Assembly: GCA_030692355.1 (NCBI GenBank)
Contig: JAUYCF010000040.1
Span: 1-64,000, forward strand
Source: Thiobacillus sp.
Lineage (GTDB): Bacteria; Pseudomonadota; Gammaproteobacteria; Burkholderiales; Thiobacillaceae
Length of the DNA stretch: 64,000 nucleotides
Direction: 5' to 3'
Below, one piece after another: positions 27,526 through 35,457 of this stretch. A program made the translations under genes and the position numbers. How positions within the stretch are numbered: position 1 is the stretch's first letter; each line of letters begins with the position of its first letter. The notes under the pieces are model-generated. The model saw only the letters and a program-made list of their open reading frames with translations, ran no database searches and was not told where the DNA came from.

Positions 27526-28267
27526 GAACTTCGCCCACCCCGCCTTCACGCCCTACCGGGACCTGATCGGCGCACTGGGGCTGGCGCACGCGCTGCCCTC
27601 GCTGGACGCCCTCAACGCACTGGCCGCTGCTCGCGGCACAACGCAGTCACGCGGGTTGCCGCTGCGCTTTTTTGCCGCGGACGGCCGCCTGCCGGCACGC
27701 GATTACGAAACCCATATCCTGCACACCGGCCTGGTACCGACCCGCCCCGATACCTGGCACGACGTGCTGAATGCGCTGGTGTGGTTGCGCTTTCCGCGCT
27801 TCAAGTCCGCGCTGAATGCGGCCCACGGCGAGGCCATCACGCTTGAAACAGACAGCCGACGCGGCCGCCGGCGCGACGCGCTGACGGTGCTGGATGAATC
27901 GGGTGTATGGGTCATCAGCCGCGACCCGAGCTTGCCCCAATGGCTGGCGGACCGCGCCTGGCACGCGCTGTTCTGGGAAGCGCGCGCGCGGGTCGAAACC
28001 GGGATGTGTTTTGTGGTGGTGGGCCATGCGCTGCTGGAAAAGACACTCGCGCCCTACCCGTCGATAACCGGAAAATGCCTGCTGCTGCGTTCGGATTCGC
28101 TCGACCCCGACGCCGCCGATGCCCTGGCCGTCACGGCGCTCGGCGCGATCGGCACCCCGCGCCAGCTTGCCCCGCTTCCGGTGCAGGGAATTCCGGGCTG
28201 GGATGCGGCCAACGCCCACGCCGCGTATTACGCCAACAAGGAAATTTTCAGGCCGGCGCGCATTTAA
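27524..28267 (+). CDS. DUF3025 domain protein
   Basis: 247-residue cytoplasmic protein of unknown function. It has the DUF3025 outline: HPAFTPYRDLIGALG near the N-terminus, ARDYETHILHTGLVPTRPDTWHDVLNALVWLRFPR, and late LLLRSDSLDPDAADALA. The only start giving the full family N-terminus is TTG at 27524, which lies within the right end of element C. An insertion may have replaced the native upstream region. Confidence 0.75.
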   Translation: MNFAHPAFTPYRDLIGALGLAHALPSLDALNALAAARGTTQSRGLPLRFFAADGRLPARDYETHILHTGLVPTRPDTWHDVLNALVWLRFPRFKSALNAAHGEAITLETDSRRGRRRDALTVLDESGVWVISRDPSLPQWLADRAWHALFWEARARVETGMCFVVVGHALLEKTLAPYPSITGKCLLLRSDSLDPDAADALAVTALGAIGTPRQLAPLPVQGIPGWDAANAHAAYYANKEIFRPARI

Positions 28268-28451
28268 CCGATCAAGCCGCCGATCATCACCTGTTCCAGA
28301 AACGATGAGCAGCGACCTGCACACTTTCCGGATGACCGTTGCGAGCATCCAGAGGGCGTAAACGAGCGAAGCAATCCAGCGTCTTGATCAAGCAGGCACC
28401 CTGGATTGCCCCCGAGCGGGTTCATCGCGGCCAAGGCCGCTCCTACCATCC
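28268..28451. repeat. Intergenic repeat debris (element D core and REP-like arm)
   Basis: GCAATCCAG (28371-28379) and CTGGATTGC (28401-28409) around TTGATCAAGCAGG reproduce the central hairpin of element D in inverted orientation without its ends. Next comes CATCGCGGCCAAGGCCGCTCC (28423-28443), a REP-like arm also present at 31346-31362 and 31572-31596. No gene is seen. Confidence 0.6.
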
Positions 28452-29501
28452 TTACGCCCCGCGCCGCCGCATCGCGCTCACCCCGAACAGCCCCATCAGC
28501 CCGGCCAGCATCAGCATCGCCCATTCGGACAGCGTCGGGATGGATGCCGCGCCGCCCGGCACGCCGGGGCCGCCCTGGTCGACGATGGTGCCGTTGGCCG
28601 TCAGGTCGTCGTCGCCCAGCCCACCGTCGGTGATGCTGAAGGTGGCGGTGTTGCCGGCAATCACGGCGGGCAACTGGTACCAGTGGTAGCTTCCGTCGGT
28701 CGGGGTGGGGCCGTATTTCCAGTACACCGTGCCCGCCGGCAGGGCTTGCGGGTAGGTGACGACCAGGGTGATGGTCGATCCCGGTGTACAGCCGCCGGTG
28801 GTGAAGTCGAACAGGCCGTGCGGGAAGCTGACGCCCGCCGGGGCGCTGCCGGCGGGCGGCGAGGCGCCGTGGCCGGTGAGAGGGATGAACTGGCTGACGG
28901 TATAGCCGCAGCCTGGCCCGCCGCCGCTGAAGCTGGCGGTGATGTTGCCCGTGCCGGTGGCGGAGGGAGCGGTGTAGCTGGTGACGACCAGGGAATCAAA
29001 AGAGTCGAATAACTGTCCGCCACGCACAAGCCGAACATAGTAGGTACTGGACTTAACGTAGGCGTCGGTGCTGCCATCGTAGAAAAAGACGAACCAGGCA
29101 TCGGCCGGATTAGACGCAAAATTCGTGGAACTCCAATACAAGTCACTCATTGTTCCGGGGAAAGCGGTGGTGTCGATGGCCGGCGCGTAGGCGTCGATCT
29201 TCACCAGGGACTCCAGTTCATTCTTGCTGGGCAGGCGCCAGTCGTTGCGGCCCTTGTGGCTCGCGCCATTGGCGGCAACCGCCACGCCCAGCGCCTGGGT
29301 CCAGGTATGAAGGCTGGCGGCTCCCGCGGCGCAGCCTGCGCCGCTCAGGCCCCATGAGCACTGGTCCCACGTCAGGCCGGTCACCGTGTCGGTGATGGTG
29401 CCATCATTGTTGTCGGTGAAGGCGGCATAAGTCGGCCAGGCGACAAGCAGGGCAAGGATAGCCGGGAAGAAACGATAAAAGAAACGCGATAGGGTGGTCA
29501 T
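28452..29501 (-). CDS. DUF1566 protein with internal variable-repeat-like segment and IPTL-CTERM sorting signal
   Basis: 349-residue secreted protein. A signal peptide (about 1-26, ends PTYAA) precedes a DUF1566 (C-type lectin-like) domain with DTVTGLTWDQCSWGL, DWRLPSKNELESLV and a C-terminal part LYWSSTNFASNPADAWFVFF ... YYVRLVRGGQ. A beta-rich spacer follows (about 180-315), then the tripartite IPTL-CTERM tail: IPTLSEWAM, a hydrophobic span and basic MRRRGA. That tail marks envelope sorting by an exosortase-like system. The 55-codon block 29013-29177 aligns gaplessly with the end of the other DUF1566 gene. The usual DGR layout has that block at the very C-terminus; here it is internal. Confidence 0.85.
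   Translation of the reverse strand: MTTLSRFFYRFFPAILALLVAWPTYAAFTDNNDGTITDTVTGLTWDQCSWGLSGAGCAAGAASLHTWTQALGVAVAANGASHKGRNDWRLPSKNELESLVKIDAYAPAIDTTAFPGTMSDLYWSSTNFASNPADAWFVFFYDGSTDAYVKSSTYYVRLVRGGQLFDSFDSLVVTSYTAPSATGTGNITASFSGGGPGCGYTVSQFIPLTGHGASPPAGSAPAGVSFPHGLFDFTTGGCTPGSTITLVVTYPQALPAGTVYWKYGPTPTDGSYHWYQLPAVIAGNTATFSITDGGLGDDDLTANGTIVDQGGPGVPGGAASIPTLSEWAMLMLAGLMGLFGVSAMRRRGA
29013..29177 (-). repeat. Variable-repeat-like segment 1 (VR1)
   Basis: 55 codons (IDTTAFPGTM ... YVRLVRGGQ) equal in length to VR2 at 30524-30688, without gaps; 28 of 55 residues are identical. From the conserved Tyr-Trp-Ser onward, 18 of 22 shared codons are identical to the base (including the rare tct for Ser and the run gttcggcttgtgcgt), while the codons between them differ mainly at positions 1 and 2. 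Four shared codons differ only as T/C at position 3. This is the pattern expected of DGR-diversified C-lectin scaffolds. Confidence 0.65.
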
Positions 29502-29590
29502 GAAACACCTCGAAAATCGGATGGCAGAAAAGAAGGAAACAGGGAGCGGCTCGGCTTGGCATGGGGAAGTAATTTCCCTATCTTGAGCGC

Positions 29591-29839
29591 ATGGGCAGGA
29601 TACACAGCGGGAACGGCTGGATCATCAAGGTGCAGGCCAACAAGCACCCGCCGATTCACGCCCATGTGCTGCACCCAAACGGCAAGGCGACGGTCACCCT
29701 GGCCGGCGAAGTGGCGAATGCCGGTGTGCCGCGCACGGTGGTCGCGCGGTGGTCGTCGCCGCCCGCGCCTGGATCCGTCGCCCATGCCGAGATCGTCGAG
29801 GCCGAATGGCAACGCATGAATAACCCGCGCAGGAGATGA
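29591..29839 (+). CDS. DUF4160 protein (toxin-antitoxin-like partner)
   Basis: 82-residue basic protein: GRIHSGNGWIIKVQANKHPP followed by IHAHVLHPNGKATVTL and LAGEVANAGVPRT. The HPPIHAHV segment is the DUF4160 hallmark. DUF4160 genes are routinely followed by DUF2442 genes, as here (3 bp spacing), and the pair is thought to be a toxin-antitoxin-like module, though this is unproven. It lies on the strand opposite to both DUF1566 genes and to the avd fragment. Confidence 0.7.
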   Translation: MGRIHSGNGWIIKVQANKHPPIHAHVLHPNGKATVTLAGEVANAGVPRTVVARWSSPPAPGSVAHAEIVEAEWQRMNNPRRR

Positions 29840-29842
29840 ATC

Positions 29843-30298
29843 ATGAAAAAACAAGCCGCCCGCATCGTATCCGTCAGCACCGAACCCGGTATGGCCGTGG
29901 CTGTGGGGCTTTCCGATGGTCGTGCCTTGCGTGTCGCGCTGAACGGCCTTGCCGAGAGCCTGAGCGTTTTCTCGCCGCTGGAAAATCCCGGTGAATTTGC
30001 CACCGCCAGAGTGGCGGATTTCGGCTGGACGCTGGAATGGGCGTGCGGCGCTTCGCTGGATGTCGATCGCGTCGAGTTGGCGCTGGAACAGGTCGGCATG
30101 GCGGCCAATGTGGCTTTCCGCCACTGGCAGGACGCGCACCGCCTGAGCCTGTCGCAGGCGGCGGCCATCGGCCTGTCGCGCCGCACGGTGAGCCAATACC
30201 GCACCGGCGTAAGGCCGGTGCCGCGCACGGTAGCCCTGGCCTGTAAGGGTTGGGAGGCGGAGCAGGCCGCTCTCGGAAATTCCGCCGGGCATCGTTGA
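29843..30298 (+). CDS. DUF2442 protein with C-terminal helix-turn-helix
   Basis: 151 residues. The N-terminal DUF2442 domain (RIVSVSTEPGMAVAVGLSDG ... GLAESLSVFSPL) is followed by an HTH (FRHWQDAHRLSLSQAAAIGLSRRTVSQYRTG, then VPRTVALACKGWEA), as in the regulator half of DUF4160/DUF2442 pairs. GGAG precedes the ATG. The gene ends about 8 bp from the point where the opposite-strand avd-like homology stops, so its arrival or a deletion probably broke that gene. Confidence 0.72.
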   Translation: MKKQAARIVSVSTEPGMAVAVGLSDGRALRVALNGLAESLSVFSPLENPGEFATARVADFGWTLEWACGASLDVDRVELALEQVGMAANVAFRHWQDAHRLSLSQAAAIGLSRRTVSQYRTGVRPVPRTVALACKGWEAEQAALGNSAGHR

Positions 30299-30307
30299 AA
30301 CGGGGCT

Positions 30308-30394
30308 GCGCGAAAAGCGCCGCACCGCGTGCTCCAGATGCACCGCCAGATCGAGCGCGGCTTTCCAGACGGGTAAATGTCGGTAATGAGCCAT
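30308..30394 (-). pseudogene. Truncated avd-like (four-helix bundle, bAvd) gene
   Basis: The 29 codons MAHYRHLPVWKAALDLAVHL then EHAVRRFSR match the N-terminal helix of the bAvd/23S-intervening-sequence four-helix-bundle family, whose DGR members (Avd) bind the reverse transcriptase. Family members continue with a YHKYTLG-type segment; here the frame runs into unrelated sequence directly after FSR. It lies 127 bp downstream of the second DUF1566 gene on the same strand, the position avd takes in many DUF1566-type DGRs. A stand-alone four-helix protein not tied to a DGR is the alternative. Confidence 0.65.
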
Positions 30395-30426
30395 GATAAA
30401 AACAATCATTTCGCGGGCTTGTGGAA

Positions 30427-30444
30427 GGCCCGCCCCGGGCCGAA
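30427..30444. repeat. GC-rich repeat arm, copy 3
   Basis: GGCCCGCCCCGGGCCGAA, the reverse complement of the arm at 21854-21871 and one arm of the repeat at 5963-6026. It lies between the avd fragment and the stop of the second DUF1566 gene. Further on, GGCGAGGGCGCCGCTCCCAC (30476-30495) is another small palindrome. Confidence 0.5.
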
Positions 30445-30520
30445 TGCGTGGCGCTTGCATGGGAGCGACATTCGCGGCGAGGGCGCCGCTCCCACAGGGG
30501 GGCGGATCAGAAGAGCCAAA

Positions 30521-31249
30521 TCACTGTCCGCTACGCACAAGCCGAACGTAGTGGCTATCGGCCTTAGTGTCAGCATAGGGGTAGCCATAGCCGAAATCGA
30601 CGACCCAGGCGTAGGCCGGATCAGACGCATAAATATCGGCGCTCCAGTACCAACCGCTCTGCGTGGCGGGAAAGTAGGCGCTGTCGATGGCTGGCGACCA
30701 TGCGCCGTTATGCGCGATGGAGAGCAGTTCGCGCCGGGTGGGCAGGCGCCAGCCGGTGTTGTAGCCGCAGCGGGTGGCGGCGTTGGTTGCGGTGGGAAGC
30801 GTGGTGCTGGCGTAGATCGTCCAGTCGCCTTGACCGCTTTGCAGCGACCAGATCAGGTTGGTGACGTTGTCCCGGGTGCAGGCCCAGTCGGTGGATGGCG
30901 TAGCGGTCGCCGTGGCGGTGGTGTTGGCGACGAGGGTGCCGGTGCAGGTACCGCTGCCTTCCGCGTTGCCATTGAAGCAGATTTTGGTGTAGTCGAAGCC
31001 CTTCGCGCCCGCGCCGGTTTTGGTGAGCTGCCCCGCAGCCGCAGCCGCATCGCGCCCGAAGCGGCCGTCCTGACGGGGGTTGGCTGCGGCATCGCCGCTG
31101 TTGGCTGCGGTGCAGGCGACCAGGGCGGCGCCGTCGTAGCAGGTATCCTGGCCGGTGTCGTTGAGCAGGCCGGTGGGGCCGGCGGCATGCACGGAGAGAC
31201 TGGCGGCGAATAGCAGGGCGAACGAAGGAATACGCGGAAGACGGATCAT
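30521..31249 (-). CDS. DUF1566 protein, candidate DGR variable protein
   Basis: 242-residue exported protein: signal peptide (about 1-22, SVHAAG), an LNDTGQDTC ... GRFGRDAAAAAGQ N-terminal region, the DUF1566 core VTNLIWSLQSGQGDWTIY and GWRLPTRRELLSIAHNG. A terminal C-lectin segment, WYWSADIYASDPAYAWVV ... HYVRLVRSGQ, ends two residues after VRLVR. Ending exactly at VRLVRxGQ is the standard form of DUF1566 targets of DGRs. The segment between YWS and YVRLVR is rich in Tyr, Asp, Gly and Ser, as expected from mutagenised AAC/AAT codons. Its downstream neighbour is the avd-like fragment. Confidence 0.8.
   Translation of the reverse strand: MIRLPRIPSFALLFAASLSVHAAGPTGLLNDTGQDTCYDGAALVACTAANSGDAAANPRQDGRFGRDAAAAAGQLTKTGAGAKGFDYTKICFNGNAEGSGTCTGTLVANTTATATATPSTDWACTRDNVTNLIWSLQSGQGDWTIYASTTLPTATNAATRCGYNTGWRLPTRRELLSIAHNGAWSPAIDSAYFPATQSGWYWSADIYASDPAYAWVVDFGYGYPYADTKADSHYVRLVRSGQ
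30524..30688 (-). repeat. Variable-repeat-like segment 2 (VR2)
   Basis: The last 55 codons of the DUF1566 gene, gapless match to VR1 at 29013-29177. Variable codons sit in blocks (for example gat-att-tat, ggc-tat, tac-ccc-tat, gcc-gat-agc-cac) between invariant framework codons gcg-tct, ccg-gcc, gcc-tgg, gtc, aag and gtt-cgg-ctt-gtg-cgt. No template repeat with AAC-rich codons was found in the window. Confidence 0.65.
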
Positions 31250-31939
31250 GGTTTACGGTTCCGTGGAAGGATGTGAATAGAGAGGTGTTGATGGGCTGGA
31301 GGGGCTTGCTCCCGATAGCCGTATGCGGCGCGATGCCGTTGCGCCGATCGCGGCCAAGGCCGCGCCCACAAGCCTGGTGCGAACCCATAGAAGGGAGCTT
31401 GCCCCCGATAGGATTCACCGCGACCGCACCCGCAAGGGGTTGTAGGTTGTGTTGAGCGAAGCGAAGCACAACGCGGTATTGCCACGTATTCGTCAGCACC
31501 TGGTTTTTGGGCTGAGAGTAAGCATATGGGAGGTGTTGGGCTTCCTGCGTCAGCCCAACCTGCAAAATGCCGATCGCGGCCAAGGCCGCTCCTACCGGGG
31601 TGCGATTCGGTATGGCGCGGGGTGCTGCCTGAAAGCGGAACGAATATGGCGCGCGCCGCGGACTTCATCGCACGGGCGCGGAATGGGAAGGAATTATTGG
31701 CTTGACCTGGCAGCATGATGCGCCCCCCCCCTGAATCGATTTTTTAAATTTGATATCAGGGAGGTAAAGAATCTTCCCGTGAATGGCTTTTTAACATTGA
31801 AATAATTCCCACACAAGCCACATGGCCTAAGCCTTTCGGCCTGGTCCGACCAGGCAAGCCGAGTACGCCGGGAAAAGCGGGGCAAGACTCGCAGTCCGGC
31901 GGAGCGCCGCCGCACGGCGCCCTTGCCGAACCGGGCTCT
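31250..31939. other. Repeat-rich noncoding stretch
   Basis: 690 bp with no convincing gene. It holds two REP-like arms GATCGCGGCCAAGGCCGC (31346-31362, 31572-31589) and a stem-loop GTTGGGCT/AGCCCAAC (31535-31559). A nine-C tract (31723-31731) and an AT-rich stretch (31732-31830) follow, with CCTGA/TCAGG ends around TTTTTTAAATTTG that may form a weak terminator for the upstream minus-strand gene. No template repeat or reverse transcriptase was seen. Confidence 0.6.
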
Positions 31940-33169
31940 TCAGATCAGGCCGTTGACGATGTCGAGCGCCATCGACGGCGCTGTCGAATACTTGCCCGTA
32001 TCGACGGACAGGTAGCGGCCCAATCTGAAAACCCCGAAATCGGAGCGGCGGTGCAGGGTCGAGTCGGGATTGGACAATTCCCCCTGGCCGGCGGCGAATA
32101 CCCAGCCGCCCCGTAGCGCCACCGATTTGCTCTGCTGCCTGATTTTGGCAACGCCTGGAAGCAGGGCTTCGAGATGCCGCAGCACGTCATCCTGGATTGC
32201 GGATTGTTGCGCATCGTCAAGCGACGGCGGAGAAGGAGGAGTCACATCCGAACTTTCCATCCGCAAGCCCGACGGATACCAGGACAGGTAAAAATCGCGC
32301 TGGTTGTAATTCTTGATGTCGCCAAAGGGTCCGGTGGCGATGATCGCGCTCGGCAAATCGACCGGCTCGGCGGTGCGCACGAACAAGGACAGCCGGTACC
32401 GGTTTGACCAGGGCCCGGCAGGCCTGAGGCCCGCCGTCTGGTCTATGGCCAGGCGCCCCTCCCACAGGGCATTGATGACGTGATCGTAGGGACCATATTC
32501 CCCCTGGCTGGACTCCAGCCGCCAGGGGCCATCCACTTCACCCGCAACGACGGGGCGGGCCGCCGTTATACGGACGCCCATGCATTTCTCGATCCTTGAT
32601 TCGGCGTCCAGGGCATCGAGCAAACGATCCGCGACCCAGTTGGTTGAAACCGAACGCTCGGGAACGCGGAATCCTGCAAGGATCTCCGGCGAGTCGGTGA
32701 TCGCGCCCAGTTCACGGGAAGTCAGCCTTCCTACCCGGCAGTCCGATACATCGACGAAGTAGCGTCCGGCATCCGGATGTTGATGAATCAGGTGCGCGAC
32801 CCGATGGAAATAGTCCTCCATCGCATCCGGCTGCACCACGGTCCGCCGATGGCATAGATAGATGTCGTCGGTCATGGTCGCGACCGGGTCAAGCGAACAG
32901 CCGGTCAGGGTTTCCAGAACGGGCTTGAACGATAGTCCGCCGCCCAGAACCTGGCGGGCCGTTTTCAGCGAGGGGTCCCCGCTGTAAATGAAGCCGAGAT
33001 GAATCTTGCCCTCGTTCCATCGGCTGGCGCACGACATTGGCTGCGGCGCGGCATCGAACAGGGTGACCGGAATCCCCCGGCGCGCGAGGAAAAGCGCGAG
33101 GGAGCTCCCCATGATGCCGGCGCCGAGGACGGCGATTCGATGGCTTTTTTTTATCATTCCGCCCTGCAT
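31940..33169 (-). CDS. FAD-dependent oxidoreductase (DAO-like) of a glycan cluster
   Basis: About 409 residues. The N-terminal Rossmann motif RIAVLGAGIMGSSLALFLAR binds FAD; RWNEGKIHLGFIYSGDPSL and a C-terminal RGGWVFAAGQGEL complete a DAO/GMC-like fold. The substrate is unknown. It lies 31 bp downstream of the FdtA-like cupin, which follows a family 2 glycosyltransferase, suggesting a role in making or modifying a surface sugar. The start could be the ATG at 33169 or, four codons later, at 33157 (MIKKSHRIAVLG); neither has an ideal ribosome site. Confidence 0.75.
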   Translation of the reverse strand: MQGGMIKKSHRIAVLGAGIMGSSLALFLARRGIPVTLFDAAPQPMSCASRWNEGKIHLGFIYSGDPSLKTARQVLGGGLSFKPVLETLTGCSLDPVATMTDDIYLCHRRTVVQPDAMEDYFHRVAHLIHQHPDAGRYFVDVSDCRVGRLTSRELGAITDSPEILAGFRVPERSVSTNWVADRLLDALDAESRIEKCMGVRITAARPVVAGEVDGPWRLESSQGEYGPYDHVINALWEGRLAIDQTAGLRPAGPWSNRYRLSLFVRTAEPVDLPSAIIATGPFGDIKNYNQRDFYLSWYPSGLRMESSDVTPPSPPSLDDAQQSAIQDDVLRHLEALLPGVAKIRQQSKSVALRGGWVFAAGQGELSNPDSTLHRRSDFGVFRLGRYLSVDTGKYSTAPSMALDIVNGLI

Positions 33170-33200
33170 CCTGACTGCCTGGAGGCTGACTCGGCCGGCC

Positions 33201-33713
33201 TCAGGTCCATTGTTCGATGTAGGAAGCCGGATCGTAGGGCTCGCTGGCAAAAACCAGAAGGACCGATCCTTCGTCCAGATATTTTTGCTGGCACCAGACG
33301 CCAGGACCGAGCAATAGGCCAACGCGCCCGGAATCCAGCAACAAGATGACTTCCTCGTCATGGCAGCGCATCAACACCTCGATGCTCCCATTCAAACACA
33401 CCAGCCATTGCTGACCGCGCCGGTGCGCATGCCCGCCGCGAACCATCCCGGCTGGAACATGGGTCACCACAAACGCCCTGGCAGGCAGGAACGGCATGGA
33501 TTCGAATGGAAACGGAAGCAGGGAGCCCCGTGTGTCGGAAAGAACCTGGCAAGGCGTCAGTCTGGCTGCTCCGCCGAAAAATTCAGTCGCAGCTGTCGCG
33601 CTCGCGGGCTCCGTAAAGGTTGGCAAACCGACTTCTCCAAAGTTGTGATCAGAATAAACGCCAGGGATGGGAGGCTGAACCAATCTGGCCGGGAACGGTG
33701 ATTTTTTGCCCAT
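33201..33713 (-). CDS. FdtA/WxcM-type sugar 3,4-ketoisomerase-like cupin
   Basis: 170-residue protein. Its cupin part matches FdtA/QdtA enzymes, which isomerise dTDP-4-keto-6-deoxyglucose: SDTRGSLLPF, VPAGMVRGGHAHRRGQQWLV with the metal/active-site histidines, then GVWCQQKYLDEGSVLLVFAS. The ATG at 33713 (GGAAG upstream) gives a 65-bp overlap with the end of the glycosyltransferase gene. The 45-residue N-terminal extension before the cupin is unusual, and a later start cannot be excluded. No dTDP-sugar synthesis genes are nearby. Confidence 0.78.
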   Translation of the reverse strand: MGKKSPFPARLVQPPIPGVYSDHNFGEVGLPTFTEPASATAATEFFGGAARLTPCQVLSDTRGSLLPFPFESMPFLPARAFVVTHVPAGMVRGGHAHRRGQQWLVCLNGSIEVLMRCHDEEVILLLDSGRVGLLLGPGVWCQQKYLDEGSVLLVFASEPYDPASYIEQWT

Positions 33714-34584
33714 TGGCTTCCATTCGCACCGTTGCGGCCTGATAAGGCTGGGAGTAGCCGGTCGGCTCACGCTTGAGTTGAGAATGAACCTGTGTCAGCC
33801 AGTTGATCAAAGGCACGCCGAGTTCGAGCTTTTCATCGCAGCCCAATTCCGAGTCCCACAATTCACGCATGCAGGCGGCGCTGACTTCATAATTTTGCCT
33901 GGCCGAAAAAGCCCAACTCCTGGACAGGCTGCCTGGCTTGTAAAATTTCAGGCACAAGGTTTCGGGTACACGGGCGAACTCACCGAGCAGGCTCATGTGA
34001 AACAACCATGGCCAATCGGCGGAAAACTCCCCAGCCCCATTGGTCTTCAGCCCCTGAATCTTGCCGGCCTCGCGCAGACGAAAAACGCCCCGGTTCGGCG
34101 CCCACCAATGCCCTGCGCGCAACAATATTTTCTTGCCGCGCTCGACCCTGTCGCGCAGGCCATCCAATTCGGTATACGCACAATGCGTCTGGCTGCCATC
34201 GACCGCGGTCAGGAGCAAATCCGAATAGCTCATCACCACCTCCGGCCGGCCATCCAGGACGGCGCACAGTTTTTCCACGTAAGTGGGTTCCAGGGTGTCG
34301 TCGTGGAAGGCAAAGTGCACGTAATCCGAGTCAGCCTGGCCGAGCAGAAAATTGCAATTCCCGACATAACCCAGGCGCCGCTCCTGCCTCACCACCCTGA
34401 ACCGGGTATCGCGCTCGCAATGCTTCCGGCAGACGCTATAGGTGTCGTCGTCGCAAAGGTCCACGGAAATGAGAACGTCGAAGTGATCGCGCGTTTGCGC
34501 GGACAACGAATCCAGGGTGGGCTGAATGAACTCCGCCGCCTGGTAAGCGGGCACAAGGGCCGTTACTTTTGTAGGTTTCTTCAT
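33649..34584 (-). CDS. Family 2 glycosyltransferase
   Basis: 311-residue GT-A fold transferase. VTALVPAYQAAEFIQPTLDS is the nucleotide-binding start, LISVDLCDDDTYSVC follows, and AFHDDTLEP is the DXD-like metal site. No membrane segments are visible. It heads the minus-strand group GT2, FdtA-like cupin and FAD oxidoreductase. Acceptor and donor are unknown; a decorated surface polysaccharide or glycoprotein is the likely product. Confidence 0.85.
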   Translation of the reverse strand: MKKPTKVTALVPAYQAAEFIQPTLDSLSAQTRDHFDVLISVDLCDDDTYSVCRKHCERDTRFRVVRQERRLGYVGNCNFLLGQADSDYVHFAFHDDTLEPTYVEKLCAVLDGRPEVVMSYSDLLLTAVDGSQTHCAYTELDGLRDRVERGKKILLRAGHWWAPNRGVFRLREAGKIQGLKTNGAGEFSADWPWLFHMSLLGEFARVPETLCLKFYKPGSLSRSWAFSARQNYEVSAACMRELWDSELGCDEKLELGVPLINWLTQVHSQLKREPTGYSQPYQAATVRMEANGQKITVPGQIGSASHPWRLF

Positions 34585-34663
34585 TCCGGATATTGATGCC
34601 GCGGTTACCCCAACAAAGCGTTACGCCGACCCCGATAAGCTTAACCGATCATCCATCCACGGG

Positions 34664-34915
34664 CTACGCCCCACTTGCCTGGGGACCCGCTTCCCGCTTG
34701 CAGCTGACCAATGAATCGGCGATTCCCCGGCGCAGCTCCATCAGGGCTGGTGAGAGGGAAGGAAGGTTCAATCCGCACACCAGCCTGAATACGGGTTCGT
34801 CCTTTTCAATCGGCTGCCATTCGGCATGGCGCGGATGCGCCGCCAGGTGATCGATCAGCGCTTCGTCGTCGGAAAATACCGCACGCGACAGGTGGCGATG
34901 CGTCGGGTTTGACAA
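34664..34915 (-). CDS. Hypothetical protein, 83 aa
   Basis: Starts with TTG four bases after the upstream stop at 34920. The sequence (HLSRAVFSDDEALIDHLAAH ... EPVFRLVCGLNLPSLSPALM) looks protein-like but matches no family I recognise. It may be a truncated remnant cotranscribed with the STAS gene upstream. Confidence 0.4.
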   Translation of the reverse strand: MSNPTHRHLSRAVFSDDEALIDHLAAHPRHAEWQPIEKDEPVFRLVCGLNLPSLSPALMELRRGIADSLVSCKREAGPQASGA

Positions 34916-34919
34916 TCGA

Positions 34920-35089
34920 TCATCCGCTTCGCCAGAACTTCACGCGTGCGGCGCAGGCTGTGGGGGGCGGTCTGAGTGAGGGGTCGATCGCAACCACTTC
35001 AGCCGGGGGTTTCAGCACCACCCGCCACGGCCCGTCTGCCAGGCCGGCATGACCAGCAGGCTGGCAAGCATGCCGGACAGAAAACGCAT
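34920..35089 (-). pseudogene. Possible frameshifted small exported protein
   Basis: The ATG at 35089 shares a base with the upstream TGA (TGATG) and encodes a good signal peptide, MRFLSGMLASLLVMPA, but hits a stop after 25 codons. Another frame over the same DNA continues as GLADGPWRVVLKPPAEVVAI and on to 34920. This suggests a small secreted protein broken by one frameshift near 35040. Confidence 0.3.
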
Positions 35090-35457
35090 CAGTCTTCCGA
35101 CTCGGGCAACTCGCCGCCCGCCACCCAGGCTTGCGCCAGTTCCAGTTCATCGAACAGACGGATATCCGCCGACATGAACATACGGTTCACCCACATGCTC
35201 CACGCTACCCACTGGTCGCCGGTGAGGATGGCGATGCGGCCGAAATCGTTCTTGTGTTCGCGTGAAAACTTAAGTTCTTCCCACGCCACGTCGACGCTGT
35301 AGGACAGCATGTCGCGCAAGTCGAACAGCAGGTTGACGGTACCCTGAAACTGGATGCCGTAGCACACCGCCTTCTCGAGCTCACGGTAATCGTCCAGCGT
35401 GAACTGCCCCATCACGGTGACGGCAATCAGGTTGTCCTTGGTGTTCAGGCTGATCAT
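35089..35457 (-). CDS. STAS/SpoIIAA-like protein
   Basis: 122-residue SpoIIAA-like (STAS/SEC14 fold) protein: MISLNTKDNLIAVTVMGQFT, VNLLFDLRDMLSYSVDVAWE, then GRIAILTGDQWVAWSMWVNR and FDELELAQAWV. Such proteins are small and stand alone in many proteobacteria; the role is uncertain. AAGGAG precedes the ATG by six bases. It starts 27 bp downstream of the DMT transporter gene. Confidence 0.8.
   Translation of the reverse strand: MISLNTKDNLIAVTVMGQFTLDDYRELEKAVCYGIQFQGTVNLLFDLRDMLSYSVDVAWEELKFSREHKNDFGRIAILTGDQWVAWSMWVNRMFMSADIRLFDELELAQAWVAGGELPESED

Follow-up and report, generated by a model that had tools for sequence, protein, structure and literature searches.

In diversity-generating retroelements (DGRs), copying of a template repeat (TR) is error-prone at adenines, and the resulting sequence replaces the 3′ end of a target gene. 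DUF1566 is the most common Pfam domain among DGR targets, and DUF1566 domains have C-type lectin (CLec) folds, as stated in the portion of PMC6642488 that deals with targets. Degenerate DGR loci have been published before: a literature search on inactive or lost DGRs returned no closer case than those of PMC10907252 and PMC7517822, and found no paper on a DGR with a truncated or pseudogene copy of the accessory gene avd, nor on a DGR in Gallionella. Another such locus is described here from a window of 64,000 nt of Thiobacillus sp., comprising positions 1-64,000 of contig JAUYCF010000040.1 in assembly GCA_030692355.1 (referred to as G000; 3.27 Mb in 117 contigs, 99.99% complete). Two DUF1566 genes, gene 1 and gene 2, lie here with a stump of avd between them, and the locus is read, at a probability of roughly 0.93, as a dead (decayed) DGR with two former targets. 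It is called dead because the reverse transcriptase (RT), the template and avd are missing, and not because of the number of changes at non-adenine sites.

Variable repeats and an intact relative

With gene 2 as query, a single scan across 84,980 species genomes yielded 69 loci, including L063, on contig JAUYJO010000129.1 of a Gallionella sp. metagenome-assembled genome (MAG), in which the order is target A, avd, template, RT, target B (Table 1). In the window, gene 2 is followed by the avd stump, a DUF2442/DUF4160 pair on the other strand and gene 1, and the DGR parts are collinear with L063 in order and orientation, gene 2 corresponding to target A (84.6% nucleotide identity across 726 nt, blastn) and gene 1 to target B (78% across 442 nt, blastn). 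Missing relative to L063 is everything from avd codon 30 through the end of the RT, template included. The L063 RT is assigned to the DGR type from its context of avd, template and adenine-biased variable repeats (VRs). Relative to the window stump, the L063 avd carries a 60-bp palindrome-like in-frame insertion, and the RT frame (630 aa) contains repeat-like DNA, while the L063 VRs still show 0/70 changes at non-adenine (non-A) sites; either these features are tolerated or the element is very recently dead.

An Lcl_C (PF07603) domain is present in both window genes, with the VR at its 3′ end in each (VR1 in gene 1, VR2 in gene 2). Gene 1 further matches PF18203 (E 5.5e-10), NF041766 and TIGR04174, and gene 2 likely encodes a signal peptide, as judged by eye only.

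Comparison with the 101 positions of the L063 template, 31 of them A sites and 70 other sites, revealed that VR1 is changed at 17/31 A versus 4/70 other sites (p 9.9e-8) and VR2 at 16/31 versus 5/70 (p 1.5e-6). Outside the VRs no such bias is seen in either gene 1 (A 22/74 versus non-A 81/295, p 0.40) or gene 2 (A 21/119 versus non-A 69/490, p 0.20). The two VRs of L063 itself differ from their own template at 13/31 and 16/31 A sites and at 0/70 and 0/70 others, and those of L071, on another contig of the same MAG, differ from the L063 template at 19/31 and 17/31 A sites and at 0/70 and 3/70 others. VR1 and VR2 differ from each other at 25/101 positions, 20 of which are template A; the five non-A differences, private changes amounting to 2/70 and 3/70 in the two VRs, are all transitions, four of the five at codon position 3. 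Two other non-A changes relative to the L063 template, one C>T and one T>C, are common to VR1 and VR2, a pattern that a single lost template behind both would produce. The sequences thus support the writing of both VRs from one or near-identical templates, in line with an earlier note on this DNA, which had proposed a common or related template. For gene 1, synonymous divergence (dS) from the L063 counterpart falls from 0.85 outside the VR to 0.087 within it; for gene 2 the corresponding values are 0.37 and 0.23.

The earlier note had started from two 55-codon segments of 165 nt (29013-29177 and 30524-30688), whose gapless alignment is confirmed with 117/165 identical positions; in a DNA search of the whole genome the pair reaches E = 8.4e-17, every other match being limited to 18-24 nt with E no better than 0.04. 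Its tally of framework codons, 18/22 identical with four T/C differences, was a miscount, since the same residue is found in 28/55 codons, 21 of these 28 base-identical and seven differing, all at position 3 (six T/C, one A/G). The pattern itself is real, the 48 nucleotide differences being distributed as 20/15/13 over codon positions 1/2/3. DGR-type variable repeats in two DUF1566 genes are likewise real, judging by the A-site bias, but not over 165 nt: the template of L063, the closest intact DGR found, aligns to each segment only within its final 105 nt, the DGR-written part, of which it covers 101 nt, and the first 60 nt behave as ordinary paralogue sequence. The note had also suggested that the copies may have aged since they were written. 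Later changes are present; five of the seven silent codon differences fall within the first 60 nt, outside the DGR-written part, so that the T/C differences lie mostly outside that part or plausibly reflect later drift.

Table 1. Positions of the features discussed, in the window and in the Gallionella locus L063
Feature	Sequence	Position	Strand	Description
Island	window	28263-35104		flanked by conserved DUF3025 and SpoIIAA-like genes; contents: dead DGR and genes of the FAD oxidoreductase, FdtA-like and glycosyltransferase families
Gene 1 (former target B)	window	28452-29501	-	Lcl_C/DUF1566, PF07603 E 7.3e-34; choice-of-anchor U; IPTL-CTERM sorting signal
VR1 (DGR-written part, gene 1)	window	29013-29117	-	ungapped template match 29017-29117
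DUF4160 gene (putative toxin partner)	window	29591-29839	+	PF13711 E 7.1e-5, 23.4 bits versus cut-off 23
DUF2442 gene (putative antitoxin)	window	29843-30298	+	PF10387 E 2e-5, 25.2 bits versus cut-off 23.9
avd stump	window	30308-30394	-	first 29 codons of DGR accessory gene; break at 30308
Gene 2 (former target A)	window	30521-31249	-	242 aa; C-terminal Lcl_C/DUF1566, ends ...YVRLVRSGQ; PF07603 E 1.1e-27
VR2 (DGR-written part, gene 2)	window	30524-30628	-	ungapped template match 30528-30628
avd	L063	6698-7129		PF22296 bAvd E 4.6e-10, just above cut-off; NF033474 E 5.6e-9, below cut-off
Template	L063	7371-7471		
RT	L063	7515-9404		RVT_1 E 5.5e-11

The lost core and its surroundings

The frame of the avd stump starts 126 bp below gene 2, on the same strand as genes 1 and 2, and similarity is lost after MAHYRHLPVWKAALDLAVHLEHAVRRFSR. 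The L063 Avd query finds the stump at E 1.7e-11 (tblastn), with DNA identities of 96.8% over 62 nt and 95.1% over 41 nt (blastn), and the stump corresponds to the N-terminus of Avd-type proteins in six other genomes among 399 of the order (60-71%, tblastn). Full-length copies from three of those six match NF033474 at E 3e-5 to 4e-7, under the model cut-off, and an RT frame with Y-C-D-D occurs in four stretches fetched around such avd genes (L051, L054, L055 and L056), L051 also holding an Asn-rich template-like stretch seen by eye. A full-length avd is not retained in the window, no other avd match occurs in G000 at E 1e-3, and the 33-aa stretch holding the stump has no protein match in phage or plasmid records. 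In another genome, G592, four avd copies (L045, L048, L049 and L050) each lie within ~0.8 kb of a contig end, two of them diverging from the others after ~codon 34; contig breaks in that assembly seem to coincide with multicopy DGR parts.

The earlier note had reported neither RT nor template in the window, which own-genome searches bear out, although it overlooked the avd remnant between the two genes. It had further proposed a search for both parts in the whole genome, which was negative in G000, yet the intact collinear cassette of the Gallionella MAG carries template and RT. Briefly, no DGR RT is found in G000 with the L063 RT as query at E 1e-3 or with a five-RT profile at E 1e-5. This profile gives matches below 1e-50 in 8/49 genomes searched, including two that contributed an RT to it (those of L063 and L091) and two that did not (those of L078 and L090). 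Across 56 genus genomes the L063 RT query gives weak or partial matches in three and none that is both strong and full-length; the only congener with a sizeable match (L172, G808:C91:7562-8386) has a partial one in two pieces of 47% and 43% identity, with a best E of 3.2e-22. Nor does G000 hold a third template-like copy, the L063 template DNA finding VR1 and VR2 and then only 19 nt at E 0.17.

Several candidates were rejected. The only RVT_1 (PF00078) match in G000, L001:453-1125 on C61, is a truncated, frameshifted group II intron maturase remnant, and the two best tblastn matches for RT remnants in the window (31384-31440 and 28403-28507) both lie within dispersed repeats, the former sharing a repeat with DNA within the RT frame of L063. 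Apart from G000 itself, the only match to VR2 DNA in 369 genomes of the class is 45 nt in G299; it falls within coding sequence of a DUF1566-like gene, at the start of the 165-nt segment, and is not a template. No relative of gene 2 occurs in viral contigs, so no phage link was seen. Elsewhere in G000, the protein at C36:68353-69201 (L003, L005) has two further Lcl_C domains that VR DNA searches leave untouched; several congeners have double Lcl_C matches resembling it, and it is probably a non-DGR use of the domain.

The site of the DUF2442 gene is the place of the remaining avd, TR and RT in L063, only 9 bp separating the end of this gene from the avd break. A long frame at 29498-30460(-) was discounted as a gene, being antisense to the putative toxin-antitoxin (TA) pair and a read-through from the avd stump.

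The surrounding island lies between a DUF3025 gene ending near 28264 and a SpoIIAA-like gene at 35089-35457. The former gene is present in 49/56 genus genomes, and seven of these loci were compared. Six of the seven have an empty site with the two genes 15-162 bp apart, relative to which the window has ~6.8 kb extra. In the seventh, L166 (G815), the island is represented by its right part alone (31896-34684), with a Y1_Tnp (IS200-like) transposase gene and dispersed GGCCAAGGCCGC-type repeats at L166:4333-4809 in place of the DGR part. The G035 locus is ~96% identical over most of its flanks, yet without the DGR part. Repeats resembling the GGCCAAGGCCGC-type border the dead DGR in the window (28403-28453 and 31347-31600), and such repeats together with the IS200-like transposase may have moved pieces of the island.

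The scenario that best fits these observations begins with horizontal acquisition of a cassette ordered target A, avd, template, RT, target B. In a live phase, the RT would have made copies of the template that were erroneous at adenines, and these would have replaced ~105 nt at the Lcl_C 3′ end of both genes, framework bases being kept and adenine-derived positions randomised. The cassette would then have lost avd codon 30 through the RT gene, a gap that the DUF4160/DUF2442 pair would now fill, and since that loss the two last-written variants would have been carried as ordinary genes. Entry of the TA pair and loss of the core may have been one event, the private non-A changes may be later than the last rewriting, and the present variants may be useful; the order of events, and whether the cassette arrived alive or dead, we infer rather than observe.

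Alternative readings and points against

In a variant of the decayed-DGR reading that is well worth considering, though the odds lean somewhat against it, the cassette was acquired already dead, with targets, avd stump and TA pair arriving together, and this lineage never had a working DGR. The absence of the DGR part at all seven congener loci, the closely similar G035 included, and of any strong full-length RT match in the 56 genus genomes favours this variant, as do private VR changes no fewer than about half of the flank divergence from G035; there are too few sites for dating, however, and loss after arrival fits equally well.

Quite improbable is a living DGR whose RT and template lie elsewhere in the cell (on a missed contig, plasmid or phage) and act in trans on the two genes as remote targets. 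For Thiohalocapsa PB-PSB1, PMC10907252 explored diversification in trans and reports that all but one of its incomplete loci were diversified, and the L071 targets share a MAG with the intact L063 cassette. This arrangement is countered by the lack of a DGR-type RT and of a third template-like copy in so complete an assembly and, as modest evidence, by the private non-A changes of the window VRs versus none in those of L063. A decayed DGR is preferred to machinery elsewhere in the assembly because the G000 searches are negative, a relative holds a collinear cassette and the avd stump is in place. That the two genes are ordinary paralogues, duplicated and diverged by diversifying selection or gene conversion with no DGR, deserves hardly any credence, since the conservation of Lcl_C domains and the plain paralogue character of the first 60 nt of the segment are set against changes concentrated on template adenines, with no such bias outside the VRs, and against the avd stump and the collinearity of the locus with an intact cassette.

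A number of points weigh against the decayed-DGR reading itself. The template test relies on the template of a relative, and the RT of that relative matched no NCBIfam DGR RT model, the best of its seven sub-cut-off matches being a group II intron RT model, far under the cut-off. The avd stump is short and alone matches no Avd model in a profile scan, and in an assembly of 117 contigs an RT could sit on unassembled DNA. The ratio of nonsynonymous to synonymous divergence (dN/dS) of 0.28 outside the VR in both window genes, the only two for which purifying selection was tested, is an average over the whole period since the split from L063 and is no proof of selection once the DGR was lost. Finally, non-A mismatches are an imperfect separator of dead from live DGRs: against their own template, each VR of the intact loci L078 and L091 has 2-3 of them, some beside the template 3′ end, and in L069, where the RT is broken, the count is 0/59. 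The private non-A changes of the window speak weakly against ongoing mutagenic retrohoming.

Recurrence and relation to known systems

Within the fetched flanks of the 69 gene-2-related loci, avd or RT was found in 14 (tblastn, 1e-6), a recurrence count that is biased, the loci having been found through a target gene, and a ratio that is not a rate; the other 55 are uninformative, being indistinguishable from genes never in a DGR. These 14 comprise three loci with a full-length RT, three with a damaged RT and eight without RT, the RT-less arrangement of targets and avd being one that recurs in other Proteobacteria. In L063, L078 and L091, the full-length RT stands between two target-like genes, recognised by similarity and motif, and a template was found. 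The RT of L069 (Thiobaca trueperi DSM 13587) is missing model positions 141-321, and those of L103 and L106 are in pieces. At L069:6801-7166 the avd frame runs directly into the template (...AWNVNFNNGNTNANNHDNDNHVRLVRGG), which both VRs match at 59/59 non-A sites.

The eight loci with avd and no RT found are L071, L088, L096, L098, L099, L100, L108 and L122. Their avd piece is short in most and nearly full in L100 and L122; the gene after avd has an Lcl_C domain in the six loci checked (L088, L096, L098, L099, L108 and L122), and L100 retains a template. L071 may be served in trans by the intact cassette in its MAG. The other seven, from six genomes of completeness not given (L099 and L108 come from one assembly, QUBV01, which was searched once), gave no strong genome-wide match to the RT profile, with no match at all in four genomes and weak ones, at best E values of 5.1e-13 and 1.0e-8, in the L096 and L098 genomes. 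It is tentatively proposed, as a conjecture closer to doubt than to assurance, that DUF1566 DGRs of Beta- and Gammaproteobacteria burn out recurrently, the cassette repeatedly losing its TR-RT core while the targets stay, so that DGRs would act as transient engines, trying out variants before being discarded, with the last-written pair locked in. The window would then be one end state, with L069 (RT broken, template kept) and L100 as earlier stages. Should a proper survey bear out the pattern of recurrent loss, DGRs would count as temporary devices of innovation and not as permanent fixtures. Irrespective of this, a clear DGR fossil with its intact arrangement in a relative makes the fate of hypermutated genes after mutator loss accessible to study by sequence, and warns that RT-less DUF1566 pairs can be former DGR targets.

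Compared with known systems, the window resembles the DUF1566/Lcl_C-target DGRs represented by L063 in target domain, VR position, adenine-specific changes, gene order and the avd N-terminus, but differs in being without template, RT and all but 29 avd codons. The DUF4160/DUF2442 pair is listed as the type II TA module dhiTA in Dickeya in the relevant part of PMC8198452, and as a TA pair in that of PMC12654330. As in dhiTA, the two window genes are adjacent, here on one strand, with both Pfam matches only just above cut-off; unlike the module as outlined in PMC8198452, the window pair, putatively a TA system by its domains, occupies the place of a DGR core. Degenerate loci of Thiohalocapsa PB-PSB1 are similar in that targets are present with key machinery missing or pseudogenised, whereas there, as far as the account in PMC10907252 goes, each DGR class also has a complete locus, none of which was found in G000. 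The cyanobacterial paralogue all3226, as presented in the corresponding section of PMC7517822, is likewise a former target left with remnant TR-VR homology and no nearby RT; to this picture the window adds two targets, an avd stump and the intact arrangement in a relative.

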